From: Corallium rubrum
Lineage: Eukaryota > Cnidaria > Anthozoa > Scleralcyonacea > Coralliidae
Direction: 5' to 3'
NCBI GenBank assembly: GCA_964035015.1
Contig: OZ036010.1
Coordinates: 3,543,604 to 3,607,603 of the forward strand
Length of the DNA: 64,000 nucleotides
Position numbers and translations under genes: made by a program. Every line of letters begins with the position of its first letter. Position 1 is the stretch's first letter. The notes beneath the pieces are model-generated. The model was not told the DNA's origin. It was given only the letters and a program-made list of their open reading frames with translations, and ran no database searches. Positions 1 to 30,629 of the stretch are shown in pieces.

Positions 1-1948
1 GGGAGAGATTTTTCAACAGTAGCTTCTTATCTGAGCCCATCAAACTTGTGCAATCATATTTCCCACTTCCCCCTCCATCAGCATTTTTTTTCTCCCAGAT
101 GGAAAAGCACACACCACAGCTTCTTACAGCAGATAAAAGAGCATCTACATGCTTGGTTGTTCTTTGGTTGGGTGACTTCTTCAGATTATCTTTTGCATCT
201 GATGCAATGGCTCCTGTCACCAAGTTGTTCAGCAAGACATCTGTGTGTGAAAGTTAACAATGTGAATGAATTGTGGATAACTTTAATATTAGCTACTGGT
301 TATAATACAGGTGAAAACTATCCTTACCAGTTACCCTCAGCATCAAATGCAACTCATCAAGAACAATGTTGTGTACATCAATATTCAGTAATGGTGGATG
401 AACGCATGAATATGTTTGTTGCCTGACACATTTGATAATGTCTTCTAATGATCTCACTAAAGGTATTTCCCAGTAATAATTCTCACATTTTGACATGTCG
501 TGCCTAAAATATATTTAATCAAATGAAAATTATAACCAAACTGTTATTCAAACAGACTTTCCACCCCTGCATTTTGTTATGACTTGTCTGTGTTGCTTAT
601 GAAGTTTACACCAAATGCACGAATAGTCAGATGTGGCACCTTTCATTCCACACATTTCCAAGAGAAACTGAAAGGTTCAATTATTTGAAATTTATTAGCC
701 GAGTTGGGGAAGAAGCCAGACTTGGTAAGAATGGGTTATGATATTTAATCACGACCATTGGCATGCATGTAAAACATTGTAATTATATAAATTATTTAAT
801 ATTATTGTTAATTTTAATACCTTGTAATCACCACCAAGAAACATTTCTACCATTATGTCATAATCATCCACATTGATTTTTCCATTTCTTATTATCTTGT
901 TGATGGATTTAAATAACTGACAGCAAGAAGACTTCAGAAGCTCATAGCTCTCTTGCCCTTTGATCACAGCAATTGTGTGGTTTCCTGTGAGTGAATGAAA
1001 GGGAAAATATGTATAATGGGATAAACAAGCACACACATATACAGGCAGTAAATGTCAAGTTAGTTTTAAGTTAAATTACCTTTTGATGACATAACATCAT
1101 CACTGTCAACTAATGAAAACGATATAACGACAAAGCTAGTCTGGCGGGTCATGTTAGCCCCATCTCCACTAATCTTCACCTTCACTTTGTCATCACTTCC
1201 ACTTTTAATTTCACCTTTCTCAATCTATTAAACAAAAGCAAAGATTCATTTTCAGGGCTATTGAGAGGATCTTGGAAGCTAGAAGGGGAGAAGTTGCCCA
1301 AAATTGGGGTATTTTTGACAATGTTCCCTTCCAGCCAGCTATAATGGGGTTGGGGGTTGGGGGTTGGGGGGGGGGGGGGGTAATGATCGAGGATCTACCT
1401 CAGAAAAGCTCACTAATATGTATACTGAACTAACCTTGTTTCTTAATACATTTGTCAGCTCAGTCTCAAAATCTAGTTGTGCTCCTTCAGCTTCACCTGG
1501 TGTCTTAGTGATATGAACTAGACTATTTAAATCCTTCTTGCATTGCTTTATAAGGTATGATCGAGGTAAATCTGCTCCATTTGACACCATTGTCAGCTCA
1601 TGATAGGCAGCTTCTCCGATACAGAACTTGTCGGTGATAAACACTACCTGCTTGACCAAATCTTGTTCTGCTTCAGGCAGCTCCTGGAATGATCTGCTTC
1701 CCTTTCCCTTTCCAGCAGTGTAATTCAGCATGTGGTACACACCAGCATCATCTTTAACTTCTACAGACGACAAGCTTAAGCCAAATGTCCTTGCAAACCA
1801 CAATGATCTCTCAATTTTGGTCTTTAGGTCCTGCAGCTTTCGGTACTGGTGCCTTCCCCCAACCTCCCAAATTGATTTCCCCTTATTTACCATGTCATGC
1901 AAGTCTTGCACTTCCTCCACATACTGAAGCAAACGTTCCTGGCTTTTC
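1..1948 (-). CDS. Multi-copy GDG/GGDYK-family gene, downstream part (3' end beyond window)
   Basis: Continuation of the exon that starts at 15057, beyond the inserted transposon. Exons read on the minus strand: 1948-1435 (begins SQERLLQYVEEV after the split, ends RNK before a gttagt donor); 1224-1080 (contains KVKISGDGANMTRQ, ends phase 1); 984-821 (GNHTIAVIKG to FLGGDYK); about 667-584 (GATSDYSCIWCKLHK, donor uncertain); 503-328 (DELHLMLRVT); 240-1 (FSIWEKKNADGG), running off the window. Phases agree at all junctions except 584/503. I remember this family as a large uncharacterised one in cnidarians and other invertebrates. The acidic residues in GDG, GGDYK and DELH and the CxxC pair resemble an RNase H-fold transposase with a zinc insert, somewhat like RAG1/Transib. 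That fold is inference. Intron 1434-1225 contains a poly-G tract at 1367-1380. Confidence 0.75.
1941..1948. repeat. Left 8-bp target-site duplication GGCTTTTC
   Basis: Identical to 14544-14551 directly outside the other end of the transposon. It lies in a coding exon. Keeping a single copy restores the exon frame. Confidence 0.85.
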
Positions 1949-3322
1949 GGTTGTTGCGCTGTGTAGCAGAGCACAGAGTGCGTCACAAATGATCTATTAT
2001 TGATCATCACAATCATCAACATGACACATTATATATTACATGCTTCATTGTTCAGGATGACAAATTAACTTATCTCGTTATTATCATGAAATATATTTTT
2101 GAACAGTTTCAAGACACTCTCAAGAACTACAGAGAATACACCCTTATAGCGCCAGTTTTCCAGAGCATTAGCAAAGCGCCAGAGCGCCAGTTTGCCAGTG
2201 TAAAATTATACACTGGCTGCCAGAGCGCCAGTTTGCCAGTGTAAAATTATCCACTGGCTGCCAGAGCGCCAGTTTGCCAGTGTAAAATTATCCACTGGCT
2301 GCCAGAGCGCCAGTTTGCCAGTGTAAAATTATCTACTGGCTGCCAGAGCGCCAGGAAAAGTGTTCAATATCTCGTAGCGGAAACTAAAGAAATAACGCGA
2401 CCCTTAGTGCCAGGGCGCCAGTTTGCCAGTGTATTAAAAATTATCCATTGGCTGCCAGAGCGCCAGGAAAAGTCTTCAATATCTCAAAGCGAGAAACTAT
2501 CTACAGAAATAACGCGATCCTTAGCGCTAGAACGCCAGTGTAAAATTATATCCTTTCATTCCCGTGACTGTGGCTATATATACATAAGACGCACATATAA
2601 GACGCATGTTACGTTGGGGATGTGAAGTTTTTCGAAAGATAAGTTTGTGTGTGTGTTATCTCTCATACACAAACGGCCCTTTTATCTCACAGTATAAAAC
2701 TACTAGGTAAAGAACAGTTTGCCATGGCTGTTATTTTATATTAGCTATTAGTTAAGTGATCAATAATAGTTCAGTTCCTATTAATGGCTAATTTCGAGTT
2801 GGCCAGCGATGAGGATTTTTATGAAAAATTGCGATAGGAACAAATATAAAACTGTCAAAATATTTTAGAAGAAGACTGGTTAGCCCTACATGCACTTCAG
2901 AATCTAACAAAAGACAATGGGTGCACATAAAATAAGCTCATACATATTGCGGCATACAAGATGAGTTAGAAATTTGAACTATGAAGGATTCATGGGCTCG
3001 GAAGTCAGATTATAATTTCTTGTTTCCTTTCATGTTAAAAGTTTTATGCTAATTGGCTTTCTTTGTCTAAGCTTCTTATCAGATACTCAAAAAGGTGTGT
3101 CGGTTTGCGCTAAAATAACCAAAGTCCAAGGTATAATTAATTATTGAACGTAACTGAATACAAGAACACTGTTTAAAATAACATTTTTATTTTCCACATT
3201 AATCAATATATAAGCGTTACTAGTTTGAGACTTAACTTGTCGTGTCAATCAGGATAATCAAACAAAAAAGTAAAATTAGAATATCAGCAATTATAGGCCT
3301 AATATATTTTGTTCTCTATTCA
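1949..3322 (+). repeat. Left terminal inverted repeat (about 1.37 kb)
   Basis: Reverse complement of 13066-14543. Over the inner ~770 bp I see only about four substitutions and one short indel between the two arms. The outer part differs by minisatellite copy number. Homology fades just after GTTCTC at 3311-3316, immediately before the stop of the leftward gene. Confidence 0.9.
2175..2555. repeat. Subterminal minisatellite of the left TIR
   Basis: About four copies of a ~41-bp unit built from CTGGCTGCCAGAGCGCCAG and CCAGTGTAAAATTATCC. Two longer variant blocks containing AATAACGCGA follow. CTGGC/GCCAG words occur on both strands within each unit. Such repeated subterminal motifs could bind transposase; that role is inference. 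Confidence 0.8.
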
Positions 3323-3327
3323 ATTGT

Positions 3328-3720
3328 TCATTCTTCTCCATCATTGGCGCTATTCAATATACGGGAAGCGATTTCGTTTGTTGCTATTAACCGTTCGCGA
3401 ATCCTGTTTGAGACATCCATGTTGGTCTTAAAGAAAGACTTGCGATATGCATCCATGGACAAGCCAAGTCTAGCTAGACTACTTTCATCTACTTCATCTG
3501 GAGTTTCTTTCACGAAGGCAATGGTTGCGCCATTTCTTACCACATAACCAAGACGTTGGCTTTCAAGTGTAACCATACTTTCTTGCACGTCTGTTGGGGA
3601 AGGTCTTGTTCCCGAGCTGAATCGCTCTCTCAACAAATTGGTCACGACAAGTGGACCATCGTAGTTGATGATTTTCTTCGCAATCTTTGCTGTCGTTTCT
3701 TCAGCGGTGCCTGTCAAGTG
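3328..3720 (-). CDS. DUF3987-like gene, last exon
   Basis: Acceptor cttatatcacag in phase with the previous donor. Reads HLTGTAEETTAKIAKK to ILNSANDGEE and a stop, adjoining the TIR. The segment looks like a small helical C-terminal domain; I do not recognise it. Confidence 0.6.
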   Translation of the reverse strand, partial: HLTGTAEETTAKIAKKIINYDGPLVVTNLLRERFSSGTRPSPTDVQESMVTLESQRLGYVVRNGATIAFVKETPDEVDESSLARLGLSMDAYRKSFFKTNMDVSNRIRERLIATNEIASRILNSANDGEE

Positions 3721-3907
3721 CTGTGATATAAGAAAACACAGTAAGGACAATAGAAATGGAAAATGTTAGAATTTAACGTAGATATAAGTATAAAAGAGTT
3801 TATTATTTTTAAATAAAATACGTGTTGGTTTAAGGAATGTTGCTTATATGTTGTTTAATCCCCAACGGCTTAGAACCGCTTACCAGTCAAAACGTCCTCA
3901 TATGTAA

Positions 3908-4226
3908 TGTTTACAACACGAGCGGCCGTGTTGTATTGAATATACAATCACGAGCCGAAGGCGAGTGATTGTATATTCAATACAACAAGGACGCGAGTGT
4001 TGTAAACAACTTGTGAAATGAATGAATAGTAAAAATCCCTTTGGGATATTAAGATGCTAATTAGCTACAAGCACTGGTGGTTGTATCAGAAGAGTATACA
4101 TCCACCAGTGGTTGTAACTAATTAGCATCATTGGTTTTAGTTTGTATGGGGTTTACAGGGGTATACATGTGACGTAATTTCTGAAATTGGATTGGCTGCA
4201 AAACTCATGAATTAGTAATGAATTTC

Positions 4227-4230
<4 letters not shown>
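3908..4230. mobile_element. Palindrome-headed MITE in the DUF3987 intron, copy 1
   Basis: About 320 bp, nearly identical to 18120-18443. The head is a hairpin with ACAACACGAG...CTCGTGTTGT-type arms around GAGCCGAAGGCGAG. A second inverted pair follows (GCACTGGTGG / CCACCAGTGG at about 4073 and 4101). An (AT)n tract follows at 4231-4256. Confidence 0.75.
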
Positions 4231-4261
<31 letters not shown>

Positions 4262-4693
4262 CATTAATTACAATTATATTTTTTTAGTTATGCAGGACTG
4301 AATGCATGCAAGGGGACATACTTTTCACATTTCTATCAAAGAACACAAGAACTAAACGTTTTCCCGACTTTTTTTTGGGGGGGGGGAAGACAGAATCCGC
4401 GAGGGATGGGGGGGGCAGTATCCGCTGGTAGTGTCGTGGGGGACAATTTCAGCAGGGGACACTTCCCCTTTCTTCGGAAAATATTTAATTCTAAAGTATA
4501 AAGTTGTATATCGAAAGTATGTTTTGCGGTTTTGTTATGAAACTGCACTCGATTAAATGCAGCAAATAGCATTTAAAAGCCCAGAAAAAAATAAATTCAG
4601 AGAGCATGCCCCCGAACCACACCTACGACTTTGGGGTTCGCTAAGTTAATTAACCCCCTTTTTTAAGAAATTCATTTCTGGATGCAACTTTAC

Positions 4694-5196
4694 CTTTTCG
4701 ATTATGTCTTTTTGTTTTTTGAAATATTCATTTAACTTGATGGCCTGTTTCACGTATCTCCGTGGTATTGTTCTTGAAATTGGCCCGTACGCTTGAAACA
4801 GAGCCCGCCGAGTATACTGGTATAGGTGATGTACAATATCACCGTCCAGCGCAAAACATGGCGACGTTCTTTAGTTGCCCTAGTAACTAAGTTGCCAGCC
4901 TGCCAACTAGAATTGAGTTGAAGACAAACTTGTTCGTCAAACTTGTCAAATTCAGCTAAAGCTTCGTCGTCGAGACGATATTCGATGGCCATATCGTCAC
5001 CGTGGTGATTGCAGTAAATGGCGTTGAACAAAGCGTTGAGGTCTTGCAGGTTGGACCGTCTCAGCGCAACCCCGTATTCTGCGCTTTCTTTGCGTGTCAA
5101 AGCTTCAGGTTTGACGATGGCGACATTAAACCTCGCACCAAAACCATCTTGGCCTGCAGACATTAAAGGATAGAGATCCACTAAGAAATTTTTCAC
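4694..5196 (-). CDS. DUF3987-like gene, third exon
   Basis: Acceptor aattatag, then VKNFLVDLYPLMSAGQDG. The open frame is lost near 4829 by what looks like one missing base after RWTVILY. A second frame then continues HHLYQYTRRALFQAYG to KKQKDIIEK and a gtaaag donor (phase 0). Confidence 0.6.
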
Positions 5197-5417
5197 CTAT
5201 AATTAACAAACAAATACATATCTATATTGCTATCAATATATATTAATTTAGCACCTCAGTATACAACTTCGTACCCAGGAAATGCATGGCCTAATACTTA
5301 AGTAATAGGCATATCTTTGGTCAGACAAATTTCAGCATACTATACACCGTGAAACTGATTATAGCGACAATAAAATGCTATAGTACTAATAAATAATAAG
5401 ATAATAAATAAACGCAC

Positions 5418-5650
5418 CTGAACAAACCCTCCGAGAGCAATGCTTGTTTTGTCAACGCCGACTGGACTCGAGTTGGAACCAGTTGACACAAATAAGGAAT
5501 CTCCGTCGTACAAACGGCACAACGTTCCCATTTCTTTCTCGCTTAAAATTTGTTTTAGCGTTTGGTACATCTCGTCTTTAACGATGACTGCTGTGCCATT
5601 GTTTTCGAGGTCCTGACTGAACCTTGGTGTGACCCAATCGAGATAAGTAG
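5418..5650 (-). CDS. DUF3987-like gene, second exon part
   Basis: Reads LDWVTPRFSQDLENNG to ALGGFVQ, followed by a gtgcgt donor. The upstream edge is the 5' end of the LINE (about 5648-5657). Confidence 0.6.
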
Positions 5651-8414
5651 TGATGATATTAATAATCAATTCTCCCTTAGTGACTTAAACAATTTGAAAG
5701 GGTTAAAAATTGCATGCTTAAATATTAATAGCCTCTTAAAGCACATTGATGAACTTCGAGTAATGATGTTAAATAATCCTTTAGATATCTTAGCTATCAA
5801 TGAATCTAAAATTAATGAGTTAGTTTCGGATGATGAAATAAGCGTTAGTGGTTTCCATCTAATTCGAAAAGATCGCAATAGATACGGAGGCGGAGTGTTG
5901 ATGTATATTCGGGAGACTATTCCTTTTAGCGAACGGAAAGACTTACGAATGGCATGCTCGTTGGAAATGTTATGTGTAGAAATTAGTAGACCATGCAGTA
6001 GGCCATTCTTAGTAACTACATGGTATAGACCCCCTGGCTCAGATACTCGCCTGTTTGACGATTTTGAAAATTTTCTTAGTAGATGTGACTTGGAAAACAA
6101 AGAATTATTACTTATGGGTGATCTAAATTGTGATGTTAGTAAGTTTCCCCCTGATGCTCACACGCGTAGACTGCAATTTCTTTCATGCATCTACCAGCTT
6201 GAGCAGTTAATTAACGAACCCACAAGGGTAACGAGAACGTCAGCAACCTTGATCGATTTGATTTTTACTAATAAGAAAGAAAATATTGTAAAATCCGGAG
6301 TTGTTCATCTTGGTATATCCGACCATAGTTTGATCTTTGCCGTTAGAAAATTTTTTACTCCAAAATCTCAACAAAATGTTAGATATGTCCGTAACTTTAA
6401 AAATTTTAATGCTGCGGACTTTCTTAATGATCTATCACAGATGCCATGGGATAACGTGGCTCAATATGAAAATGCAAACTCTTGTTGGCAACTTTGGAAA
6501 TCTTTTTACTTGCAAATACTTGATCGACATGCACCATTTATACGTATGAGAATCCGTGGCAACTCGCTTCCTTGGATTACTCCAAACATCAAAAATCTGA
6601 TGAGAGCAAGAGATTTTCACAAAAAGAAAGCGGTAAAATTTAATTCTCAATTACATTGGGCGAAGTACAAAGACATTCGCAATAAAGTTAACTCTGAATT
6701 GTACAAAGCCAAAAAGAGCTATTTTTGCGACAAATTTGAGAATTGTGCTCAGACTAAAGATCCTAAACAAAGTTGGCACCATATTAATCACCTCTTGGGT
6801 AAGAATTATAAATCAAACAACATTCCCCAATTAAAAATAGGTGACACTATTATTTCTGATAATTTAATGATAGCAGAGGCCTTTAATGATTTCTTCGTGA
6901 ACATTGGGCCAAAACTATCTGCTGAAATTGACCATGTCGCTCTGGACTTGTCAGAAAATCTCGTTACTGGTCCAGTGACTCTATTTACTCTGTCTGAAAT
7001 AAGTGAATACGAAGTATTTCTTTTGTTAAGTAATCTTAAAACATCAAAATCGACAGGCATTGATTCTATCCCCGCAAGGGTACTTAAAATCTCAGCTGAA
7101 ATAATTAGCCCTTCTTTAACTTGGATCTTTAATCTCTGTATAAAAACCGGAGTCTATATAGATGATTGGAAGAAGGCTTGGGTTGTTCCTATCTATAAAT
7201 CAGATGATAGGAAAAAATGTGAAAATTATCGGCCAATATCAATCTTACCGATTATTAGTAAAATTTTCGAGAGATCCGTTTTCAATCAATTGTACGAATT
7301 TCTGAACGCTAATTCTCTACTTTCTAAACATCAATTTGGGTTTCGCCCAAAAAATTCTACTCTGGCAGCACTCATTCAGATGTGCGATGCATGGTATGAG
7401 AATATGGATAATGGTGAATTGAATGGTGTAGTTTTTATTGATATTCGAAAAGCTTTTGACTCTATTAATCATGATATTCTTTTACGCAAAATGAAAGGAC
7501 AATTTGGGATTTCAAATGTTGAATTAAAATTGTTTGAATCCTATCTTTCTGATAGGGAACAAGTGTTATTTGTTAATGGCGCAATGTCAGCACCAAAAAG
7601 GATTGTTTGTGGGGTCCCTCAAGGATCTATATTGGGTCCCTTATTGTTCTTACTCTACATTAATGACTTACCTGATTGTCTTGAGAAGTCAACCCCATGC
7701 TTATATGCTGACGATTCACAGATATATTCATCTGTGAGCATTGAGCATTTATAATGCTCTGATACAGCCTTACTTCGATTACTGCTCTCCCCTTTGGGGA
7801 GTCTGTAACAAAACACTGAGAGATAACTTACAAAGGTTTCAAAATCGGGCTGCCAGAATAATAGCTGGCGCCAGTTACGAGATCAGATCTGCTGACGTTC
7901 TTCGATCTCTTGATTGGGAAAATTTGGAAACAAGATGGTACTTAACCAAGGCGACATTCTTATATAAAGTCTTGAATAGTAGTGCTGCACCGACTCTGAA
8001 AGATTCATTCATCAGTAGGAATATTTTACTAAATAATTATAATCTTAGAAATTCTCAAACTGATCTGTCCCTTCCAAAGCCAAATAGAGAATTTCTCAAA
8101 AGAAGTTTTAAATATAGCGGTGCTTATCTTTGGAATAACCTTCCGCTTGAAGCTAAGCAAGCTCAATCAATTTACTCATTGAAAAGTTGTATCAAACAAA
8201 ATATTCGATGTTAAAAATCGAGTCTGGATTTTTTTTTTAATCATATCTTTATCTGGGTCACACCATCGTAAATTATAGTAGTGATGTACATATGGTAGTA
8301 GACTTAGTTTCCTTCCTTTTTATATTCTCTGTAATATATTTTATATGGACGCCCCCCGTGGAAATCAGCTTTTGTAGTTGTTGGGGCTAGCGTCGTTAAA
8401 TAAAGTGTAAATAA
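5648..8414 (+). mobile_element. CR1/L2-like LINE, 5'-truncated with internal deletion
   Basis: The first open part (to 7754) has an apurinic-type endonuclease: LNINSLLKHIDELR, MGDLNCDV, SDHSLIF. A reverse transcriptase follows: WVVPIYKSDD, YRPISILP, FIDIRKAFDSINHD, GVPQGSILGPLLF, and the catalytic LYADD at about 7707. At about 7740 the frame jumps from YSSVSIEHL straight to IYNALIQPYFDYCSPLWG in another frame (7741-8217). Roughly 100 residues normally lying between are missing, so the enzyme is inactive. The 3' tail is a short (TAAA)n stretch at 8396-8414. ATAAG at 5643 and 8415 is a weak candidate target duplication. It lies inside an exon of the DUF3987-like gene, in opposite orientation. 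Confidence 0.85.
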
Positions 8415-8838
8415 ATAAGATGTTGGCGTAGCCCAACTTCAGTGAACTTGTCGATCGTCAATCTTACGTTATTCTCCCGTTCGACAAAAGACATTGGGAT
8501 TTTTCCTCCATGATTGTTAGCTGGAGATTTTGCAGCATCAGGAGGAGCCAAACACAGAACGAAACATCCCAAACTTTCATGATGACCCTCCGACAACTTG
8601 AGGCGTGTTTTAGAGCCTAACAAACCAGCTATTCGTGGAATAATGGCTGAAAACATAATCTCCTTTACAACACCTTGAGCACGAGCAAACGTTTGCAGCC
8701 AATCAGTGAAATAAACCGGGGCAACATCATCCCATTCTATAGTATTTTCACTTGCTTCTGTTGCCAAGGCCTTTATTGTATCGTCAACGTCGCTGACTTT
8801 TCGCTTTCGCGAGAATTTCCAAGCATTGTGATTTGTGA
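8415..8838 (-). CDS. DUF3987-like gene, first visible exon
   Basis: Reads VTNHNAWKFSRKRKVSDVDD through IEWDDVAPVYFTDW to DKFTEVGLRQHL, then runs into the LINE tail. A stop lies just upstream in frame at the possible acceptor ggttataag, so translation must start in an upstream exon or at a non-ATG codon. Confidence 0.6.
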
Positions 8839-9850
8839 CTTATAACCTGTCTCACAACAAGCGTTCGAATGATTTGGTGATTGTCAAACTTTTTATTTAT
8901 ATGTTCAGTTCAAATTTGCGCGCTTTTTCTTTTCCTAATTTGATTATTAAACAGATTAAATCAGATATCACATAACAACCAATAATGTTCGACCGATCTC
9001 ACGCGTATATCACTGTTCAAGGTGATCTAATCTACAACGTCATTTTTCTTTGTTAAACTGAGCCAATTTTCTATACCATATGAACATTCAGTTAACTCTT
9101 TCCTGTCTGCATAGGTACTTAGTATTTTATTCTGGATAACGCTAGATGATTTTATTATCACTTGGGGAAAGCCCTAGACAGGAATGCGGTTATATATAGA
9201 TCTCTCTAAACAAAACAAGTTACAGCGGTAATTTCAGGTGATTTGCGCCCACCGGATGTAAAAGTTCTTGGCGCCAATGTTTTTGACATGAAGTGGTCAC
9301 TAAATAACAACGATATTTAGTATATATTATCTTATTAAACAGCCTATATTCTTATTCAGATCTCGTTAATGTTGGTTTAAAACAGCCTCGATCTTCTTTC
9401 AGACATCGGTGGTGTCGGTGGTTTTGTTATTCCGTGATTTGGTAACCACTCCTTTATGTCAAAAATGACTATTGGCGCCAAGAAATTGTACATCTGGTGG
9501 GCGCGAATCACCTAAAACTGCTGTTGTAATGACTCGATCGCGCGAGTCTATGTGAAAGAAATGTACGCACTTTTTTGTGTGCTAGCGGAATGTCTGGCTT
9601 ACTGAGCCGGACATTGCTAATTTTTGGCGTGGTTTTGCAAAAACACTTGTAAAACGGAGATTATATAGACATACTGCATGAAGACCGCAAATACTTGAAG
9701 ATTTTACGTTAATCTCATTTTATCTATTTATTTGGCGGTCATTTTCTATTGGAAAAACTGATAACTGTTATGACAGCAGTTACGTATAGTACTATAAGTA
9801 TGTAACTCTGTACACGTTTACAGAAGTATAGATATACATCACTCTAAACA
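8839..9850. other. Central divergent region of the transposon
   Basis: No convincing coding. It separates the two outward-facing gene blocks and should hold their promoters or first exons. A nested MITE at 9220-9528 may have split the original promoter. No clear TATA box could be assigned. Confidence 0.5.
9220..9528. mobile_element. MITE nested between the transposon genes
   Basis: Arms 9220-9292 and 9456-9528 are inverted copies sharing AGGTGATTYGCGCCCACC and CTTGGCGCCAAT. The spacer is ~165 bp. No coding. Confidence 0.65.
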
Positions 9851-11840
9851 ATGGAAAGATTTATTCGGCATATTGTAGTATTTTTATTTTCCGCAATTCT
9901 ATGCGGTGAAGTAAATTGTGTTCCTCAAAGAGAACGTCATCACGAATACATTGCGAAGATTATTCAACAATTTCAAGATTCTCCAGCTGCTCTCTACGTC
10001 TATCCACCTATCCCGATGATACAGTCATCAAATCCACCGCTTCCTAACCCTAGCGAATACATGCGTCCAGTTTTGATGTTTTGGGATCCACTCAATCAAC
10101 TTGCATGTCTAAAAGGTATTATCAGGTGTCCTCGATCGGAATGTAAAGCCAGTTCTGACATTCGTTTTCTTCGGGCTGTTCACTGGAAGGATTGTCACAA
10201 TCAACGAGAAACCTGTAGACTCTTACATGGAGTAAACGGACCTGTCTACTTAATCAGCCGAGTTTATAGATGCACAGCGCAACATGCAGAGATAATTGCA
10301 CACGACCCAGCCATCGTCAATCTGATACCAGAATCGCGAAGGCCGTTTATTTTGTCGCATATTAACGGAGTAACTCGTGAGCTTCAAGACAATTGTGTCG
10401 TATATAATCTCAGGTTTAAAAATGGAAAACATACATTTAATGATGTCTCAAATATTCATGGAGTCATACACGAGAAAACGTGTTTCTTATGAAGAAGATT
10501 ATCAATATTTTCTGTCCGCAACAAACATCACACAAGGTGATCGTGAATATGAAGTGTTCCCTCCTGACATTCCAGATGATTATAAAGCACCAAGTATAAC
10601 CGTCATTCGAGACTGTTTCATTTATGATTTCGAGAAAAAACAGTGCATGTACACTCTTAAAATGATTGAACAATCGGCCGAGTGGATTTCAATTGATCAC
10701 ACTTTTAAAGTAGCGGCAAATATAGGTACAAACAGAAAATGTGATTCACGATGGGAAAAACAATACGATTCCATGTTCTGTGTTATGAATGATATAGGAT
10801 GTGTAATCGCATGGCAATTGACTTTTGGGACAGCTTTTGCTAAAGTGGAAGATCTCCTGAAAGGATTGCAAAGAAGGTTTGAACGTCAAGGTAAAAATGT
10901 TAACTTGTGCTTTACAGACAACTGTTGTTCGTGGAGAAGCAAACTTCAATCAGTGTTTGGTGTTGGTTTTTTGGTAAAACTAGATATTTTTCATACAGTA
11001 CAAAGAGTAGTTAAAAAAATCCCCAAACGTCACCCGTTTAGCTTTCGCTGTGCCCAAGCATTTTCTCTTATTTTCCGTCGTCCACATGACCACGGAGACA
11101 ACCGCAAAAATTCTACTCCAAGTTCTGAAATAATGAATAAGCAACTAGATGAGTTCGTATTACAGTAACATGGAAAGATGTACTGTTCGAAGAAAAATCA
11201 GTTTTGACCTTAGACGCACTGAAAGAAATCGTCAATTTAAGGAAACACATAACGAAGGGGTTACTTGTCAGATATTCCTCCTGGATGTGGCACTGAGCGT
11301 AATGAAAACCTTCATAAATGTTTACGTAAAAGTGCCTGTAAAGTTCGAATTGGCGTACATCTAGCCGTTGCCCTTTTTACAACATTTCTTTATGTATGGA
11401 ATGAGAAACGAAAATCAGGAGCTGCTGGCAAAAAGCTCAAAGTAGTTCCTGTAATTGATGCATGCGAAAATATCAAATTTAAAACTTTCGACAAGAACAA
11501 GGCTGAAGAAACTTTCGGTGTATATATAGGTGTTTCAAGTGAAAGAAATTTTAATGCTCATGACGATACCATCCCGTTATCATATTGTGGTTTGTTTGCA
11601 GACTGCGAATGGGACGCCAAGGAACACGATTTAGAAGATATTCTAGAGAATTCGGATTTTATTTTGGAAAAAGAAGACGTTAGAAATATTTTAGATAGGG
11701 CAACAAATTTAGCTGGAGTTGTGGATAGTTTGGAAAGAAGTAATGGTCGCAATCGCATGTTGAATCATAACCACCTAAATTTAATGTCAAATCCTTTTTG
11801 CTTTTGCTTTTGGAACTTGTATCGACAAGAACGCGAATGA
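9851..11840 (+). pseudogene. DDE-type transposase region of the transposon (frame-broken)
   Basis: From ATG at 9851. Residues 1-23 are hydrophobic and odd for a transposase, so the true start may differ. Then a Cys/His-rich block (IRCPRSECKAS ... YRCTAQHAEI) of the zinc-binding type I associate with DUF6729. Frame changes near 10455 to VSYEEDYQYFL onward. The transposase core holds SIDHTFKV (Asp at 10695), LCFTDNCCSW (Asp at 10917), VKLDIFHTVQRV, and IPPGCGTERNENLH (Glu at 11295 or 11304). These fit a D-D-E catalytic set on an RNase H fold. Further single-base breaks occur near 11165, 11257 (GGGG run) and 11797 (TTTTT run). Correcting for the last, FAFGTCIDKNANEVV joins directly to the OTU part, so the ancestor probably made one long protein. 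The exact superfamily is uncertain. Confidence 0.7.
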
Positions 11841-11841
11841 A

Positions 11842-13017
11842 GTGGTTAACGCAGAACGCTTGCAAAATACATTAGCTTCATATAACATGGAGGTCGTGAA
11901 GTCTCAGCCAGATGGCAATTGCTTCTTTACTTCTGTTATTTTTGGTTTGAAACAAATAATTTCTTCTGAAAAATATGTAAACTATCGTGAGTATTTATAT
12001 AGTTTGAATTTATCCTTTAAGCAACTGGAAACAACTGTTCTTCAGTTGCGCAAACTTTTGGTTGAAGAATGGCTAGCAAATATGTCTGAGTATGCTAATT
12101 TCGTTACAAATAAAGATAGGTCCTTTCAAGAGTTGGCAGATCTCTACAGGTTACACGGTGTCTTTGCAGGCGAATTGGGAAACATCATGGTCGTTGGACT
12201 AGCAAACGTTCTTCGAATAAATGTTGTGCTCTTTACATCCATGCAAAGAATGGAAACTATACCAATTGTCCCAAGAGGAAAAGTATTAATAACGTGTCCC
12301 ATTTACTTAGCGTTCAATCATTCTGGATGCGGGCATTACGACGCTGTTATTGAATCCGTAGGCGTAGATACGGAAAAACAAGAACAGACAGCAAACGACT
12401 CACACGTCAATGAAATTCCAAAAAGTTTGAAGCAAAGCAGTTCGGAAGAAAAAGGCTGTCGTTGTGGTAGAGGAGCGGCAAAGCAAAATAAGGAAAGGAA
12501 ATTTTGCTTCCAAGCACCAGGAGAGCGTCGTACGCAGTGTCCTTGTTTCCGTGATCTGAAAAAATGTTCGCAAGCATGTCACTGTTGGAATTGTAACAAC
12601 CCTCATGGCATGAAATTCGACAATTCTGAGACAATCAAGAACACTCAAGCTGCGAGGCCACGAATACGGGAGAAACACAGTATGCACGGTTTGCGAAAAA
12701 CTAGTCTAGACTATATGCTAGAGTGTGGAGAGAAACCAAAAGATCCCAATTGGAATACGATGGAAAAACATGTCCTAACATCACTTGTTGGCCACACTAT
12801 CGAAAAAGGAGAGGCGCTAAATGAGGATAACATCACGATGTTATACAACGAGCTGGTAGACATCGTAAATGAACTGCCAAACGTTAATTTAATTCTGAGC
12901 AAAAAAGAAAGTAAAGTGATAAAGCAAATGCTCAAAAAAACATCCCAGGAAGCAGAACTATTTCGGCAGATATATTTGCAACAGGTTGAAGAGAATATAG
13001 GCACTGATAATTTTTAG
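11842..13017 (+). CDS. OTU cysteine protease plus CXC zinc-binding region (transposase C-terminal half)
   Basis: Open frame of about 390 codons. The OTU domain shows SQPDGNCFFTSV, with catalytic Asp (11911) and Cys (11920), and GCGHYDAV with the His (12334). The spacing, about 140 residues, is usual for OTU deubiquitinases. A Cys-rich segment follows at about 12457-12610: CRCGRG, CPCFRDLKKC and CHCWNCNNPHG, matching the CXC pattern of tesmin/MSL2-like and transposon proteins. The last ~130 residues are helical and charged (LNEDNITMLYNELVD-type); I do not recognise them. The frame has no natural ATG near its start and continues upstream in frame as GTCIDKNANE, so it is probably the C-terminal half of the transposase. 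OTU proteins remove ubiquitin; a role in stabilising the transposase or blunting host silencing is inference. Confidence 0.75.
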   Translation: MVNAERLQNTLASYNMEVVKSQPDGNCFFTSVIFGLKQIISSEKYVNYREYLYSLNLSFKQLETTVLQLRKLLVEEWLANMSEYANFVTNKDRSFQELADLYRLHGVFAGELGNIMVVGLANVLRINVVLFTSMQRMETIPIVPRGKVLITCPIYLAFNHSGCGHYDAVIESVGVDTEKQEQTANDSHVNEIPKSLKQSSSEEKGCRCGRGAAKQNKERKFCFQAPGERRTQCPCFRDLKKCSQACHCWNCNNPHGMKFDNSETIKNTQAARPRIREKHSMHGLRKTSLDYMLECGEKPKDPNWNTMEKHVLTSLVGHTIEKGEALNEDNITMLYNELVDIVNELPNVNLILSKKESKVIKQMLKKTSQEAELFRQIYLQQVEENIGTDNF

Positions 13018-13065
13018 TTAATTATACATATATACGTCATTATAGGTCTTCAAACTGATCATAGG

Positions 13066-14543
13066 TGAATTGAGAACAAAATATATTAGGCCTATAATTG
13101 TTGATATTCTAATTTTACTTTTTTGTTTGATTATCCTGATTGACACGACAAGTTAAGTCTCAAACTAGTAACGCTTATATATTGATTATTGTGGAAAATA
13201 AAAATGTTATTTTAAGCAGTGTTCTTGTATTCAGTTACGTTCAATAATTAATTATACCTTGGACTTTGGTTATTTTAGCGCAAACCGACACACCTTTTTG
13301 AGTATCTGATAAGAAGCTTAGACAAAGAAAGCCAATTAGCATAAACCTTTTAACATGAAAGGAAACAAGAAATTATAATCTGACTTCCGAGCCCATGAAT
13401 CCTTCATAGTTCAAATTTCTAACTCATCTTGTATGCCGCAATATGTATGAGCTTATTTTATGTGCACCCATTGTCTTTTGTTAGATTCTGAAGTGCATGT
13501 AGGGCTAACCAGTCTTCTTCTAAAATATTTTGACAGTTTTATATTTGTTCCTATCGCAATTTTTCATAAAAATCCTCATCGCTGGCCAACTCGAAATTAG
13601 CCATTAATAGGAACTGAACTATTATTGATCACTTAACTAATAGCTAATATAAAATAACAGCCATGGCAAACTGTTCTTTACCTAGTAGTTTTATACTGTG
13701 AGATAAAAGGGCCGTTTGTGTATGAGAGATAACACACACACAAACTTATCTTTCGAAAAACTTCACATCCCCAACGTAACATGCGTCTTATATGTGCGTC
13801 ATATATATAGCCACAGTCACGGGAATGAAAGGATATAATTTTACACTGGCGTTCTAGCGCTAAGGATCGCGTTATTTCTGTAGATAGTTTCTCGCTTTGA
13901 GATATTGAAGACTTTTCCTGGCGCTCTGGCAGCCAATGGATAATTTTTAATACACTGACAAACTGGCGCCCTGGCACTAAGGGTCGCGTTATTTCTCTAG
14001 TTTCCGCTACGAGATATTGAACACTTTTCCTGGCGCTCTGGCAGCCAGTGGATAATTTTACACTGGCAAACTGGCGCTCTGGCAGCCAGTGGATAATTTT
14101 ACACTGGCAAACTGGCGCTCTGGCAGCCAGTGGATAATTTTACACTGGCAAACTGGCGCTCTGGCAGCCAGTGGATAATTTTACACTGGCAAACTGGCGC
14201 TCTGGCACTAAGGATCGCGTTATTTCTCTAGTTTCCGCTACGAGATATTGAACACTTTTCCTGGCGCTCTGGCAGCCAGTGGATAATTTTACACTGGCAA
14301 ACTGGCGCTCTGGCGCTTTGCTAATGCTCTGGAAAACTGGCGCTATAAGGGTGTATTCTCTGTAGTTCTTGAGAGTGTCTTGAAACTGTTCAAAAATATA
14401 TTTCATGATAATAACGAGATAAGTTAATTTGTCATCCTGAACAATGAAGCATGTAATATATAATGTGTCATGTTGATGATTGTGATGATCAATAATAGAT
14501 CATTTGTGACGCACTCTGTGCTCTGCTACACAGCGCAACAACC
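13066..14543 (-). repeat. Right terminal inverted repeat (about 1.48 kb)
   Basis: Partner of 1949-3322 and about 100 bp longer, because it carries an extra subterminal minisatellite block (about 14200-14330). It starts about 50 bases after the stop of the OTU-CXC gene. Confidence 0.9.
13840..14345. repeat. Subterminal minisatellite of the right TIR
   Basis: Reverse complement of the left array. It has about five contiguous 41-bp units near 14029-14212 plus one more block to about 14330. The copy number exceeds the left end, which accounts for the different TIR lengths. Confidence 0.8.
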
Positions 14544-14551
14544 GGCTTTTC
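14544..14551. repeat. Right 8-bp target-site duplication GGCTTTTC
   Basis: Second copy of the duplication, directly after the terminal CAACAACC of the right inverted repeat. Confidence 0.85.
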
Positions 14552-15057
14552 TGCAGTTCTGTGTTGATGTTAAGTTGCTTTTCTAACTTTTCTTCTGCTT
14601 GACGTCTTTCTGCTTTAACACTAGTAAGACTATCAGTCAACTCTTCACAACATTCCGCAATACGTATATTTTGCTCTTGAAGCACTTCCTTCTCGGTGCT
14701 GAGGTTGTCAAGCTCTTCCTTAATCTCGCTTACATGTTGGATTTCACCTCTGCATATAGCAATTCTTTTAACGCTGTTTGCACAAAGCATATATGATCGT
14801 CCACGTTTTGTTGACAACTTGTTATTCGTCGTTGAAACCAACTTTCTAACGTGGTTTTCAACTCTAGCACAATTTTCTTTGAGAAGCACGACATACCTTT
14901 CGGCTAAGAAACAATTGATGATCTGAACGAACGATACATCTGGTGATTTCTTCTTAAGGTCATACCAGCTTTTCAAACACTTGTCCCCGAGCCGGGCGTA
15001 AGGGCCGAAGGCCCGGAGCCCGGTGAGGGTGCTAATCTCGACATGCGTGGAGTCCAT
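14544..15057 (-). CDS. Multi-copy GDG/GGDYK-family gene, 5' exon, cut by the transposon
   Basis: Open frame from ATG at 15057 (MDSTHVEISTL) through GLRAFGPYARLGDK and a conserved block around KSWYDLKKKSPDVSF. A long Lys/Glu-rich stretch with heptad-like spacing (EELDNLSTEKEVLQEQN onward) is probably coiled coil. The frame reaches ELQKS at the 8-bp target duplication (14544-14551). Beyond it the frame runs into the transposon repeat and stops. The codons continue in frame at 1948 once the transposon and one duplication copy are removed. I chose this start because the sequence around the ATG, including the upstream bases ACACGCGTGTAAAATGGAC, recurs at 60851. As it stands the allele is disrupted. 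The frames on both sides are otherwise open, which suggests a recent insertion. Function unknown. Confidence 0.75.
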
Positions 15058-22352: not shown

Positions 22353-24025
22353 AATCGTCTGGAGTTTAGACAGTCTATTAAGACGGAGTAAACTATCTAA
22401 GTTGCCAAATGGCAACACTACTGGCTAAAGAGTTAAGAAGTAAATAATATATCGTCTGACATGCATTTAATAGCAAGAAAAAATACTAAAGTCTGCACTG
22501 CAAAAACAGTACTTTTGCGTTTGAGTTAATTTACTCAATTTTTGAGTAAATGTGAAGCTACACTCGTTACAATGAGTAAATATTACTCAAAACGAGACTT
22601 AATTAAGAAGTTTCTACTGACCACTCAATCACTTTAGTTATGATTTACTTCTTGATCTTGTTTGAGCAGTAAGAATATTTAACAATTTGTCACCGAAGAC
22701 GAGGTGACTATTGGTGAATATTAGTAAATACACCGATAGTCACCGAGACTGAGGTGACTAATTGTTTTAGTATAATTTCAGAGGTTGATAAAAAACCAAT
22801 CACACTGAAACAAAAACTTTTAAACAACTGCTTTCATTTTAGCAGTGGTGATTCTGTTTATTCACAGACGATGTTAGCAAGCCACAGGCTTTGTCAGTAA
22901 ATAATTTCAAAAAAAGAGTAAACAACATCCTACTTTGGAATTGAACTTGTACATACATTCAAATATATGCTAAACAGACTTTTATTCTGGTGTTTTGCAT
23001 CCTGTGTTACAGACGTTTTGCACTTAATTCATGTTCAATATGTTCTTCACTCATGACGAAGTTTTCGAAAACATCGCTACGACCAAAACCCAACCAAAAC
23101 TTTACTAGAAAATACGAAGAATTCTAGAAAATATACGTCCTTACCTTTACAAAGTTTTGTTTTTACGATATTTGATATGTACAACATCTCAGTGATAAAT
23201 ATTTTCAGTATTATGCTCTTTTGTTTGTTTCAAAAACTGACTGATTCTGACATTCTCTCCTATACAACTATTCCAAAGCTGTTGGAATAATTATTTTGGG
23301 ACAGCGAACACAGGTGGAGAATAATGATATTGGGTGAGCAGAGAAAAACTCTACTTGATCGAGGCTGAGATTTCGTGAACCCGTGACTTTCGGCAACCTC
23401 GTACCCAGGCTCTTTCGCTGAGAAAAGAGCCTGGGTACGAGGTTGGCATTTCGGTTTATTAGTCCAACTCTACCAACTGACTACTAAGCTATCTACACTG
23501 TATTCTATTACGGTTATCTATCCTATCTAGTATTGGTCGACCGTAGTCGGAGGAGCCAGAGGAGAGCTCCTCTTTCATTAGCTACTATACCGGTACCCTA
23601 AGGCAGGGGTAGATATACTGCCGAAACAGAGAACGTAGGAGTCTAACGTTTCGAGCGAAGGCCCTTCGTCAGAGCGAAACGCCAGTGTGTGCCCTTAAAT
23701 ATTAGGAGCCCTGAACAAATTTGAAAATGAGCAGTTCTAAATTTTTCTTAGGATGACCCCTGGTGTGTTGGTTTTGCTTTGACTGAACTCCGAGCTAGTG
23801 CGTTTTATGCCTGGAACTTATTTTTGTTTGGGTATTTTAGATATTGAGTACTAAAGGATACTACGTGAAAGGTTCGAAGAAACTGCAACCAAAATTAAAG
23901 CAGTCACTGGCCAAACTATCATTGAATTCTTCACAAGTACGTTACTAGAAACTAATATTATCCTCATCCTAATCGGTAGAAACTTTCCAATTATATTCAT
24001 AAAATCCTCGTCCAAAACATATATT
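22353..24025. other. No gene; short hairpins
   Basis: 22690-22770 has GGTGACTA / TAGTCACC hairpins ending AATTGTTTTAGTATA. 23395-23452 is a near-perfect palindrome with AACCTCGTACCCAGGCTC arms. 23618-23690 carries the CCGAAACAGAGAACG and CGAGCGAAGGCCCTTCGTC repeat. Nothing else recognised. Confidence 0.6.
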
Positions 24026-24029
24026 GAAC

Positions 24030-24140
24030 AACACCACCACCGACAACACTAACACTGACACTAACACTAACACTAACACTAACACTAACACTAACAATAC
24101 CAACACCACCAATAATACTAAGACCACCACCACCACCACC

Positions 24141-24171
<31 letters not shown>

Positions 24172-25340
24172 TCACCACCACCAACACCACTACCACCACC
24201 AACACAACAATAACAATAACAACAACACTAGCACCGCCAAAAACACTAACACCACCACCACTAACAACACCCCCACCACCACCACCACCAACATCATCAT
24301 CATCACAACCACCGCCACCAACAACAATAACACAACACAACCACCACCAACTACCACCACCACCACCAACTACCACCACCACCACCAACTACCACCACCA
24401 CCAACTACCACCACCACCAACTACCACCACCACCAACTACCACCACCACCAACTACCACCACCACCAACTACCACCACCACCAACTACCACCACCACCAA
24501 CTACCACCACCACCAACTACCACCACCACCAACTACCACCACCACCAACTACCACCACCACCAACTACCACCACCACCAACTACCACCACCACCAACTAC
24601 CACCACCACCAACTACCACCACCACCAACTACCACCACCACCAACTACCACCACCACCAACTACCACCACCACCAACTACCACCACCACCAACTACCACC
24701 ACCACCAACTACCACCACCACCACCTACCACCACCACCAACTACCACCACCAACTACCAACTACCAACCACCACCACCACCACCACCACCACCACCACCA
24801 CAACCACCACCACCACCACCACCTACCACCACCACCAACTACCAACTACCAACTACCAACTACCAACCACCACCACCACCACCACCACAACCACCACCAC
24901 AACCACAACCACAAACACAAACACAAACACAAACACAAACACAAACACAAACACAAACACAAACACAAACACAAACACAAACACAAACACAAACACAAAC
25001 ACAAACACAAACACAAACACAAACACAAACACAAACACAAACACAAACACAAACACAACCACCACCACCGCCGCCAACACCACCACCAACACAACCACCA
25101 ACACAACCACCAACACAACCACCAACACAACCACCAACACAATCACCAACACAACCACCAACACAACCACCAACACAACCACCACCACGACCACCACCAC
25201 CACCAACACAACCACCACCACCACCACCACCACCACTACCACCACCACCAAAACCAACACAAACCACCAACACTACCAGCAACAAGAACACCACCAACAC
25301 AACCACCAACACCAACACCAACGCCAACAAATGCTATATC
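24030..25340. repeat. 1.3-kb compound CA-rich satellite
   Basis: Blocks in order: ACTAAC-type hexamers; CCA/ACC triplets; a 16-bp unit CAACTACCACCACCAC at about 24350-24735; ACAAAC hexamers at 24905-25062; a 12-bp unit CCACCAACACAA at 25080-25190; mixed ACC. One strand has almost no G. Long frames through it (for example 24024-25466) are low-complexity and not genes. Confidence 0.95.
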
Positions 25341-25469
25341 AAATGCTATAAGACAGCAAGTATAAGCATACACTTTTATTACAAAATCCCATGGATTTAC
25401 ATTCAAAATTATTTCATTCTACTAATATTCATTATTCATTTTATTATTCGCATGCAATTCACATAATTG

Positions 25470-26170
25470 GACTGCTTTGCAGTGGCCAAAATATTTCTAG
25501 CTATTTTACAATAAAAACAATTTAACTCCCTTCCTATCCAAAGCGTTCAAGATTTATGTTGGACAATAAGTTAAATTCTTTTGTTATATAGCTGGTTTTC
25601 GGTGGATGTAACTAGAACTGTCATTGGTTCATTTAAGGTCACGTGGTATGAGACAAACGAAATGTTTCTGGCGCGGACAATAAGGGCGACATTTCTGACT
25701 GGGTTGCTCGTTTGGGCTGCAATTACTCAATGTAAATGCAGCTAAACGGCTTGAATCTGGTGAAAACTCCAGCTATGCAACAAACACATAAAGTGTCTAT
25801 GAAGCAAAAAAAATTTAGCGGTTTTGAACAGATCAGCATGACAGGTGAAAATTTCAAGCAAATCGGCTGCATAGTCTTTGAGCTATAAACTCTCAAAGTT
25901 TGCCATGACTTATTTATTTTTGAAGAAATTAATCCCTTGGTTAGACCGTATGCAGTTAGACAACTATGCATAACCAGAATGGATTTTAATATTCACAATC
26001 CAACGGCGTACGACGTCCCTATATATTTAATCCTAGTCTTTCCTTATTTTGTAATATCAAGAAGAAAAGTTTGGCACCTACTGATATCTCAAAAAGTACA
26101 TACCACATTTTAATATTTAATTTCTTTGAAAATGGGCTATTTAAATTATGAGCTTCAAATTTTTTCGTAT
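25470..26170. other. No gene recognised
   Basis: AT-rich sequence with no coding signal and no repeat I can name. Confidence 0.5.
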
Positions 26171-26178
26171 GTTTTTGC

Positions 26179-26339
26179 TGTACAAGCTGTCGTTAGTTAA
26201 ACTCACAGAAAAACTCTGAGCTCCAGAGGGGACTCGAACCCACAACCTTCCGAATGCCAGCCGGACGATCTCACCATTGAGCCATTGCATGCATGTAACT
26301 CAGATGGTACACTGAGGTTGTTTTACGACAGCTTGTACA
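26179..26339 (-). mobile_element. Short element with inverted ends and a tRNA-like core
   Basis: Ends TGTACAAGCTGTCGT (26179-26193) and its inverse (26325-26339). Read on the minus strand, 26290-26226 is tRNA-like: GGCTCAATGGTGAGATC A-box region, a five-pair anticodon stem TCCGG/TCGGA with one G-U around loop CTGGCAT, and B-box GGGTTCGAGTCCC. Confidence 0.55.
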
Positions 26340-26402
26340 TTAAAAACAAACGGAAAAACTAATTCTTTGAACGTTTTCATGGCGATAGAGTAATATAAAT
26401 AA

Positions 26403-26690
26403 GTTTTGTGGAAACACCACGTAAAATATTTCTTAGCAAAGAAATATTTTACGTGGTATTTCCACAAAACTTATTTATATAAACGGAAAAACTTCGCAAA
26501 CTTCAAGCTGAAAACATTACTCACACTTCAAATTTGTTGTATCAGAAATTTTCATTTCACAGACGCTTTAATGTTTGATCTCTTGGGAAACTATGTGTAG
26601 TTAGTTTTGTTTTCCCTCAATCTCAATGTTTTCCTCGACTTCGTCCGGGGAAACATTGAGACTCTCGGGAAAACAAAACTAACTGCCCTT
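26403..26690. repeat. Two long hairpins
   Basis: 26403-26471: GTGGAAACACCACGTAAAAT arm against its near-exact inverse. 26598-26690: TTAGTTTTGTTTTCCC arm with apex CTCGACTTCGTCC. Confidence 0.8.
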
Positions 26691-27036
26691 ATCCAATTCA
26701 TTAATATTTATGAAGAAAATTCAAAAGAAATAGGAATGTTAAATCTGGTGTTTTAATTGGATACCAATTCGTCCTGATTTACATAAACTTTTCGCTTGAT
26801 TTTCTCATCTTAGACAGCTTATATCTTACAGATTGTTGATAAACCAGAACATTTAGATGTGTGAATTGGATAAGTGCTTTGTGTTGTAAATGCCCTTCTC
26901 AAACTCATTAATAATTCATGAGGAAAACAAAGGAAATCAGTACTGAACTGGAAACCCGGTCTTAATTAGCAAAGAATTTTGCCAACTTTCAACCTGATTT
27001 TTTCATAAAATACTGATTTGTTTGAGAAGCTAGATC

Positions 27037-27450
27037 AAACACTCGAAAGAGTGTTTCATCCTCTATCCAGTCACCTCGAAATTGGTTAAAAAACTCGGCC
27101 TACGGCCTCGTTTTTCAACCACTTCTCGGTGACTGGATATCGGATGAAACACTCTTCCTCGTATTTTATCTATTACTTCTCAAACTCATTAATAATTCAT
27201 GAGGAAAAAATAATCAGTTACCGAGACGTTGTTGTGAAATGTGGTAATAAACTCCCATAAATTAAGACAAGTTTTACCTCAAATTTCTCTTTAAATACTG
27301 ATTTGTTTGAGAAGCTATATCATACACTCGAAAGCCGTTTATTATCTGATTTAAAAACACCTCGAAGTGAGTTAAAAAACTCGGCTATCGCCGACACTTC
27401 TCGGTGTTTCCAAGTTAGATAATAAACGGCTTCTCGTGTATGATATATAT
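27037..27450. repeat. Two hairpin MITEs with GCC-GGC apices
   Basis: 27037-27165: GAGTGTTTCATCC and TCCAGTCACC arms around CGGCCTACGGCCTCG; a relative sits at 38941-39068. 27321-27450: CCGTTTATTATCT arms around CGGCTATCGCCG. Confidence 0.75.
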
Positions 27451-27582
27451 ATTACAGTTCGGTCGCCCATATTGCATATATATTGCTTATAACAACACTG
27501 CTTACAAATGTTTGCGCTTGCATGAGCTTTTAAAGAAAAAAACTCCACAAAAGATGTGGAAACTACACGTAAAACCACACAA

Positions 27583-28109: not shown

Positions 28110-28482
28110 TTATCACAAATTAAGCAGCATTGTTCCAACAGCCGATATCAGGATGTGTTCGCACTTCTTGTTCCTATATAGTTGTTTGAAGTCTGGAACA
28201 AGTTGTTAGCATCTTGTAACAAGGTTGATTACTTCATCAAGCTTGTACAAGATGTCTCTACCGCAAGTCTGATATCACCTGCACGTAACAAGTTGCTACA
28301 CGACCGTTGGCGACAACAAGCTAATTGTAGCAGCTTTGATGAAATAACAATAGACTTCACAAGCCTGTTGCGAACACATCTTGTTGACAAGCTGTGAGAT
28401 TTTTCCTGTGTAGTCGTGACAACAACAACCAGACAGTGACACAGCAAACTGATGAATAATAAGGCTCAAATAGAGAGACATT

Positions 28483-30615: not shown

Positions 30616-30629
30616 TAAACTGAAAACTG

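Follow-up and report, generated by a model that had tools for sequence, protein, structure and literature searches.

It is generally held that eukaryotic cut-and-paste transposons mostly depend on the replication and repair machinery of the host for everything beyond cutting and joining. The transposon described here occupies positions 1949-14543 (12,595 bp) of a 64,000-nt stretch of the Corallium rubrum genome (474 Mb; assembly GCA_964035015.1, contig OZ036010.1, 3,543,604-3,607,603 of the forward strand), hereafter called the window, and it pairs a gene for a transposase with OTU and CXC domains with a gene for a DUF3987 protein. Several described systems resemble it in part. MULEs are characterized in the main text of a survey by target site duplications (TSDs) of 8-11 bp and long terminal inverted repeats (TIRs), and an 'Ovarian Tumour Gene' is entered for group 14, MuDR-6_HM (Cnidaria), in Table 1 of the same survey, the main text of which does not contain the word 'helicase' (PMC6446971). 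MULEs also share the C/DxxH motif (PMC9587614). Ginger1 resembles the present element in possessing an animal DDE transposase with a C-terminal OTU domain, but is described with a Gypsy-type integrase core, TIRs of 40-270 bp, a length of 2.6-7 kb and a 4-bp TSD, CCGG or CCGT (PMC2836005). Kolobok transposases belong to the C/DxxH group, and some lineages carry a helicase (RecQ in KolobokH), which is encoded on the complementary strand in one red alga; in contrast to the element reported here, the TSD is the 4-bp TTAA, the accessory protein is RecQ rather than a DUF3987 ATPase, and the main text of the paper does not mention 'OTU' (PMC9587614). Zisupton/KDZ elements share the 8-bp TSD (PMC12730594). 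Finally, DUF3987 of bacterial mobile elements, which resembles the present protein in its Pfam DUF3987 domain with Walker A and B motifs, has been described as a predicted helicase that substitutes for RepA, DnaB or MCM beside mobile-element primases (PMC5862659). The bacterial domain is described as fused to primases (PMC5862659), whereas here it is encoded by a separate, spliced gene with an extra C-terminal exon, and no primase was found. Our searches of open-access papers turned up none that describes DUF3987 in a eukaryotic transposon.

The element is best read as a decayed copy from an unclassified, two-gene lineage of DDE transposons within the C/DxxH group. The conserved partner in this lineage, DUF3987, is probably a DNA motor of the replicative helicase type that unwinds or copies the element or helps to restore it. 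The evidence comprises the ends of the element and its empty site, the presence of both genes in sister copies, their recurring pairing elsewhere in the genome and the constraint on both proteins.

The initial annotation of the window had noted inverted ends of 1.4 kb, an 8-bp duplication and two gene blocks that end near the edges of the TIRs, and all of these were borne out. The DUF3987 gene ends at 3328 and the transposase gene at 13017, next to TIR edges at 3322 and 13066, respectively. The features of the ends are as follows.

1941..1948, unstranded: left TSD, GGCTTTTC, assigned by flank comparison and the empty site
1949..3322, plus strand: left TIR, 1,374 bp, with tip GGTTGTTGCGCTGTG
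2178..2354, plus strand: subterminal array, 4.3 copies of a 41-bp unit, containing the motif GCCAGAG[CT]GCCAG; putative transposase-binding sites
13066..14543, minus strand: right TIR, 1,478 bp
14030..14207, minus strand: mirror-oriented subterminal array in the right TIR, again built of 41-bp units; putative binding sites
14544..14551, unstranded: right TSD, GGCTTTTC, in 8/8 agreement with the left TSD

The longest ungapped pieces of the TIR arms were 99-100% complementary, and the entire gapped alignment 91.8%. When the window flanks were joined with a single copy of the TSD, an open frame of 200 codons was restored. Further, a 600-bp joined flank matched five other places in the genome over its full length (99%) and one further place at 78%. 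Because the joined flanks match five intact places, the empty site is observed directly, which rules out chance and verifies the 8-bp duplication as well as both edges of the element. The insertion target itself (window 1339-2022 and 14500-15057, minus strand) is repeated, with six further matches elsewhere in the genome, and appears to be coding.

When the genome was queried with the DNA of the left end, 123 matches were obtained, from which 20 stretches were taken, giving 13 regions besides the window. Both tips were present in eight regions including the window, and these are referred to as TIR-to-TIR copies. The sisters of the window copy in this set were C25 (C25:6456202-6469508, 13,307 bp; TSD 8/8, GAATGTTT), C1a (13,723 bp; TSD 8/8, TAAAATCT), C12 (12,440 bp; TSD 7/8), C23s (3,087 bp; TSD 8/8, GAAGAAAT), C8 (5,912 bp; TSD 8/8, TAAGTTAC), C1b (3,964 bp; TSD 6/8) and C15a (4,343 bp; TSD 4/8). 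Thus, the TSD was perfect in five of the eight copies and agreed at seven, six and four positions in the others. The tip pattern GGTTGTTNNNNNGTGTAGCAGAGCACA was common to three subfamilies, although individual copies deviated from it at one or two positions. TIRs together with a TSD of fixed 8-bp length at independent insertions place the family among the TIR DNA transposons. C25 and C12 shared 99.35% identity along 12,306 bp and lie in opposite orientation within different flanks; because of this identity in different surroundings, the family has probably moved recently.

Six copies (window, C25, C12, C1a, C23s and C8) were examined for the motif GCCAGAG[CT]GCCAG, and each of their ends contained it 6-36 times, forward at the left end and in reverse at the right end. 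It was confined to the terminal arrays in these copies and was absent from their fetched flanks. The subterminal arrays are possible transposase-binding sites.

Both genes were present, in divergent orientation, in all four coding TIR-to-TIR copies (window, C25, C12 and C1a). The initial annotation had proposed a distinct family that pairs a transposase-OTU-CXC protein with DUF3987, and had asked whether the two genes occur together in full-length copies; these four copies uphold the proposal. No match to either gene was found between the TIRs of C23s, C8, C1b and C15a, which look non-autonomous. Five of the six other regions possessed one recognized tip and coding matches: both genes in C52 and C2, DUF3987 and parts of the C-terminal half of the transposase in C18, DUF3987 only in C23, and the transposase only in C1c, which begins with N. 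The sixth, C15b, had a single tip and no coding match. In C52, a 480-codon open reading frame (ORF) that is tyrosine recombinase-like by eye lies between the DUF3987 exons (C52:6354162-6355601), which suggests a nested Crypton-like insertion.

Only C25, among the coding TIR-to-TIR copies, read as open in both genes. Its transposase is encoded by a single intronless frame of 1,072 codons from stop to stop (1,061 from the first Met), and its DUF3987 gene consists of three exons with GT-AG introns that encode 502 amino acids. C1a carried breaks at several points, and C12 was broken in the N-terminus of the transposase. The initial annotation had inferred an autonomous family; this does not hold for the window copy, the state of which is described below.

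We then surveyed the pairing across the genome, where genes are split by introns and all search counts are lower bounds. Searches yielded 110 matches to the catalytic part of the transposase, 108 to OTU-CXC, and 38 (by protein) and 56 (by Pfam model) to DUF3987. Clustering at 4 kb gave 92 transposase, 95 OTU-CXC and 59 DUF3987 loci. A transposase locus lay within 15 kb of 36 of the 59 DUF3987 loci, compared with 0.34 expected under uniform placement, a value that is too low for repeat-rich contigs. When OTU-CXC matches were included, 38 of the 59 were accompanied, and DUF3987 is therefore not a host gene captured only at this site, a case that the initial annotation had named as one that would refute its proposal. 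OTU-CXC matches were found within 5 kb of 77 of the 92 transposase loci, and for 12 of the 108 OTU-CXC matches the surrounding open frame, 997-1,088 codons long, also contained a match to the catalytic part. The DUF3987 proteins of distant pairs were 22-49% identical to the window exon. Of the 36 pairs, 17 were divergent, 13 convergent and 6 codirectional; because all three orientations occur, the DUF3987 partner is kept while the arrangement changes. The pairing thus belongs to the lineage, and it is genome-wide but non-universal.

Nesting in repeat-rich contigs could bring two genes from different elements together. Many of the loci do lie on short, repeat-rich contigs, nested insertions are common (the retrotransposon in the window and the tyrosine recombinase-like ORF inside C52 are examples), and the mapping of both genes between TIRs covers the four coding TIR-to-TIR copies; a comparison of short loci from the distant families did not reveal their ends. 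However, control transposases were found within 15 kb of DUF3987 at only two of the 59 loci for MULE (98 loci) and one for KDZ (27 clusters). Further, nesting is already refuted for the four full-length coding copies, in which TIRs enclose both genes and the TSD is 8/8 (three copies) or 7/8 (one copy). As an account of the pairing as a whole, it is very improbable.

The ratio of nonsynonymous to synonymous substitution rates (dN/dS) was estimated by NG86 counting, with C25 as the reference. For the transposase, the ratio was 0.145 (window), 0.141 (C1a), 0.158 (C1c), 0.156 (C2) and 0.172 (C18); for DUF3987, it was 0.066 (window), 0.093 (C2), 0.091 (C18) and 0.074 (C23). These values are imprecise, as dS was 1.3-2.2, and no ratio is given for DUF3987 of C1a, in which dS was saturated. 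The ratios indicate purifying selection on both genes, with a stronger effect on DUF3987 than on the transposase. Because the decay of dead copies raises dN/dS, the constraint is probably, if anything, understated.

The spliced DUF3987 protein of C25 matched the Pfam family with E=1.8e-15 (57.4 bits, compared with a gathering cut-off of 27 for PF13148), and six relatives in the same genome matched with E values of 1.6e-14 to 1.4e-33, all above the gathering score. In an alignment of eight rows, of which C3 and C5 are near-duplicates, the Walker A Lys, the Walker B Asp-Glu and an Arg were invariant. The P-loop glycines were lost in the window subfamilies including C25 (APPDAAKS), partly lost in the relatives from C3 and C5 (AESGSNKS), and retained in a canonical loop in others (APPGAGKT, GPSGIGKS and APSGAGKT). 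The P-loop had been called degenerate in the initial annotation; this holds for the window subfamilies and for C3 and C5, but not for the other relatives, and the key Lys and Asp-Glu residues are kept throughout. All four distant DUF3987 proteins in a PHROG scan, which did not include the C25 protein, matched DNA helicase/primase families. The separate C-terminal exon of the window gene was conserved in five relatives (23-29% identity) and perhaps encodes a winged-helix-like domain, judging the fold by eye; a Pfam scan of five such exons gave no match for three and weak matches below the cut-off for two. No match to DUF3987 was found by PDB sequence search. A pattern scan with one DUF3987 protein found no relatives in viral contigs and phage records, single-sequence scans of this kind detecting close relatives only. 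Of three proteins searched against NCBIfam, one alone had matches, both to SecA (E=0.011 and 0.031) and both far below the cut-off.

The main rival to a replicative-type motor is a regulator of the transposase, similar to MuB, TnsC or IstB, in which DUF3987 would bind the target, activate the transposase and direct or limit insertion without helicase action. The altered P-loop glycines of the window subfamilies would suit binding better than processive unwinding, an ATPase kept with its transposase under strong selection is compatible with such a role, and a dedicated ATPase is described as necessary for many prokaryotic transposases (PMC11208146). In contrast, the distant DUF3987 proteins resemble phage helicase/primase profiles, the extra C-terminal domain is conserved, and the five perfect TSDs show no target preference by eye. 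Further, the MuB, TnsC and IstB families are AAA+ proteins, which also counts against this rival. We consider a regulator doubtful, although it is the most serious of the alternatives to a motor.

In the C25 transposase, candidate catalytic residues were located at D 291 (DHTFK), D 365 (TDNCC) and E 489 or 492 (GTERNE), with a DxxH motif at 387 that reads DVFH in C25 and DIFH in the window. From this pattern, DDE chemistry is predicted. Matches to OTU (17.4 and 17.7 bits, cut-off 23.3) and Peptidase_C65 (21.6, cut-off 24.3) were below the cut-offs; the motifs DG(N/D)C and GHYD, which we take to be those of the OTU catalytic Cys and His, were present in both the window and C25 proteins. A PDB sequence search with the C25 transposase yielded nothing useful (MtrR, E=0.23; MSL2, E=0.45). 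Pattern scans, subject to the same limit to close relatives, found none of the C25 transposase in viral contigs, genome contigs or phage records; a scan of viral contigs with the catalytic part from the window was likewise negative. The transposase reading opens with a hydrophobic, signal peptide-like stretch followed by a Cys in the window (9851-9920), C25 and C1a, and the same arrangement occurs at the presumed transposase start of a distant family on C23. Such a start is odd for a nuclear enzyme, and the start codon is presumed.

We compared the element with each of the related superfamilies. The 8-bp TSD and long TIRs agree with those of MULE/MuDR; the TIRs of the window copy (1.37 and 1.48 kb) exceed those of the MULE survey, which are 14-500 bp in its text and up to 613 bp in its table (PMC6446971), and the TIR matches of some copies extend over only about 0.7 kb. 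MULE/MuDR was rejected on the grounds that PF10551 did not match the C25 transposase (1,012 residues scanned, E<=1) and that none of 98 MULE loci overlapped transposase loci. Ginger1 and Kolobok were rejected on their TSDs, which are 8 bp here, and varied in sequence, rather than CCGG/CCGT or TTAA. For Zisupton/KDZ, PF18758 did not identify the transposase, and the Pfam KDZ matches at 30 places (27 clusters) did not overlap transposase loci. No hAT or P family model matched in the Pfam-wide scan of the same 1,012 residues (E<=1); distant kinship with these is possible. DUF6729 proteins offer another likeness. DUF6729 matched weakly in the N-terminus of the window transposase and had 17 Pfam matches genome-wide, and in three DUF6729 ORFs (528-540 amino acids) the match to the window catalytic part either overlaps the DUF6729 domain or comes immediately after it. 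These three, which are among the four weakest catalytic-part matches genome-wide, are half as long as the transposase and had no DUF3987 or OTU-CXC match within 15 kb (compared by eye). The group, located at C141:203687-394417 and C1:54441417-54451720, may be a shorter cousin of the transposase; no paper on DUF6729 was found in open-access literature searches.

The window copy itself is dead and non-autonomous, because the transposase frame is broken and a long interspersed nuclear element (LINE) splits the DUF3987 gene; both defects had gone unnoticed in the initial annotation. Its coding features are as follows.

3328..3720, minus strand: last exon of the DUF3987 gene, conserved C-terminal domain; exon edges by comparison with C25
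4694..5196, minus strand: middle exon of the DUF3987 gene, C-terminal half of DUF3987; Pfam scan and comparison with C25
5418..5608, minus strand: portion of the first DUF3987 exon lying downstream of the LINE, with the Walker B region (VKDE); edge by comparison
about 5609..8414, plus strand: non-LTR (long terminal repeat) retrotransposon with endonuclease and reverse transcriptase in the DUF3987 gene
8415..8826, minus strand: portion of the first DUF3987 exon lying upstream of the LINE, with an altered Walker A motif (APPDAAKS)
9851..10492, plus strand: N-terminal part of the transposase, hydrophobic N-terminus, weak DUF6729 match (E=0.02)
10377..11168, plus strand: catalytic part of the transposase, with DHTFK (first D), TDNCC (second D) and D-x-x-H (DIFH)
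11265..11840, plus strand: part of the transposase with the probable third acidic residue (GTERNE)
11842..13017, plus strand: C-terminal part of the transposase, OTU protease-like at about 11905-12261 and CXC at about 12442-12621

The transposase thus reads as four ORFs in three frames. The LINE ORF (5562-7754) matched RVT_1 (E=2.4e-28) and an endonuclease domain in Pfam, and the insert between 5608 and 8415 is missing from C23 and C18. The Pfam pieces recognized in the window, all below gathering scores, were OTU, Peptidase_C65 and MSL2-CXC in 11842-13017 and DUF3987 in 4750-5196. The DUF3987 start codon was placed by comparison with C25, and the frame is disturbed near the start. Elsewhere in the window, the long ORFs (at least 190 codons) of 24024-42627 look like simple-repeat artefacts (poly-FLPS, VPVS, TQ) rather than genes.

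For an intact member of the family, these features suggest the following mechanism. The transposase, the CXC of which is a domain of DNA-binding type, probably binds the oriented subterminal GCCAGAG[CT]GCCAG arrays and would cut at the GG...CC tips and join the target DNA with an 8-bp stagger. The DUF3987 P-loop ATPase, with its extra C-terminal domain, would supply a motor step for an element of 12-14 kb with long TIRs, by unwinding or copying the element or by aiding its restoration at the donor site. Such a step would ensure that the long element is neither lost nor truncated on transposition.

Several observations weigh against this account. The glycine loss makes ATP use in the window subfamilies uncertain. 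The DDE assignment follows a motif pattern without a match to a Pfam transposase model, the Pfam-wide scan of the C25 protein (its 1,012 C-terminal residues, E<=1) having detected only OTU and MSL2-CXC, each below its gathering score. Besides the two genes, no ORF longer than 109 codons was seen in C25, and therefore no obvious polymerase or primase is brought by the element. The dN/dS ratios between the closely related copies C25 and C52 were 0.635 and 0.607, indicating little constraint after copying, as expected of copies that drift after insertion. Several pairs (for example C13, C79, C61 and C8) are near-duplicates by score, so that many of the 36 are non-independent. Further, neither a transposase nor an OTU-CXC match lay near 21 of the 59 DUF3987 loci; one of these lone loci, C23:15215350, lies inside a copy with one recognized tip. 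Conversely, only 36 of the 92 transposase loci had a DUF3987 match within 15 kb, and 56 had none.

Some lineages may accordingly do without DUF3987, as would be expected if it were accessory cargo directed against host defence or silencing and outside the transposition reaction; the OTU domain also suggests host-directed functions. Yet DUF3987 was kept in all four coding TIR-to-TIR copies and in families with a different gene order, selection on it is stronger than on the transposase, and PADLOC returned nothing for the three proteins scanned, two of which were DUF3987. Cargo is thus an unlikely explanation, and we prefer the motor. A stronger version of the motor reading is possible, and we put it forward tentatively: an undescribed lineage at the superfamily level that carries its own phage- or plasmid-type replicative helicase for self-copying during transposition. 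Such a lineage would parallel replicative transposition systems in a eukaryote, and its transposase would incorporate a deubiquitinase and a CXC reader.

A helicase-type ATPase under stronger selection than the transposase would imply a testable motor step in transposition. The range of DUF3987 is extended from bacterial and phage mobile elements to spliced genes of a eukaryotic transposon, and the combination of transposase-OTU-CXC and DUF3987 provides a marker pair for annotating such long elements.

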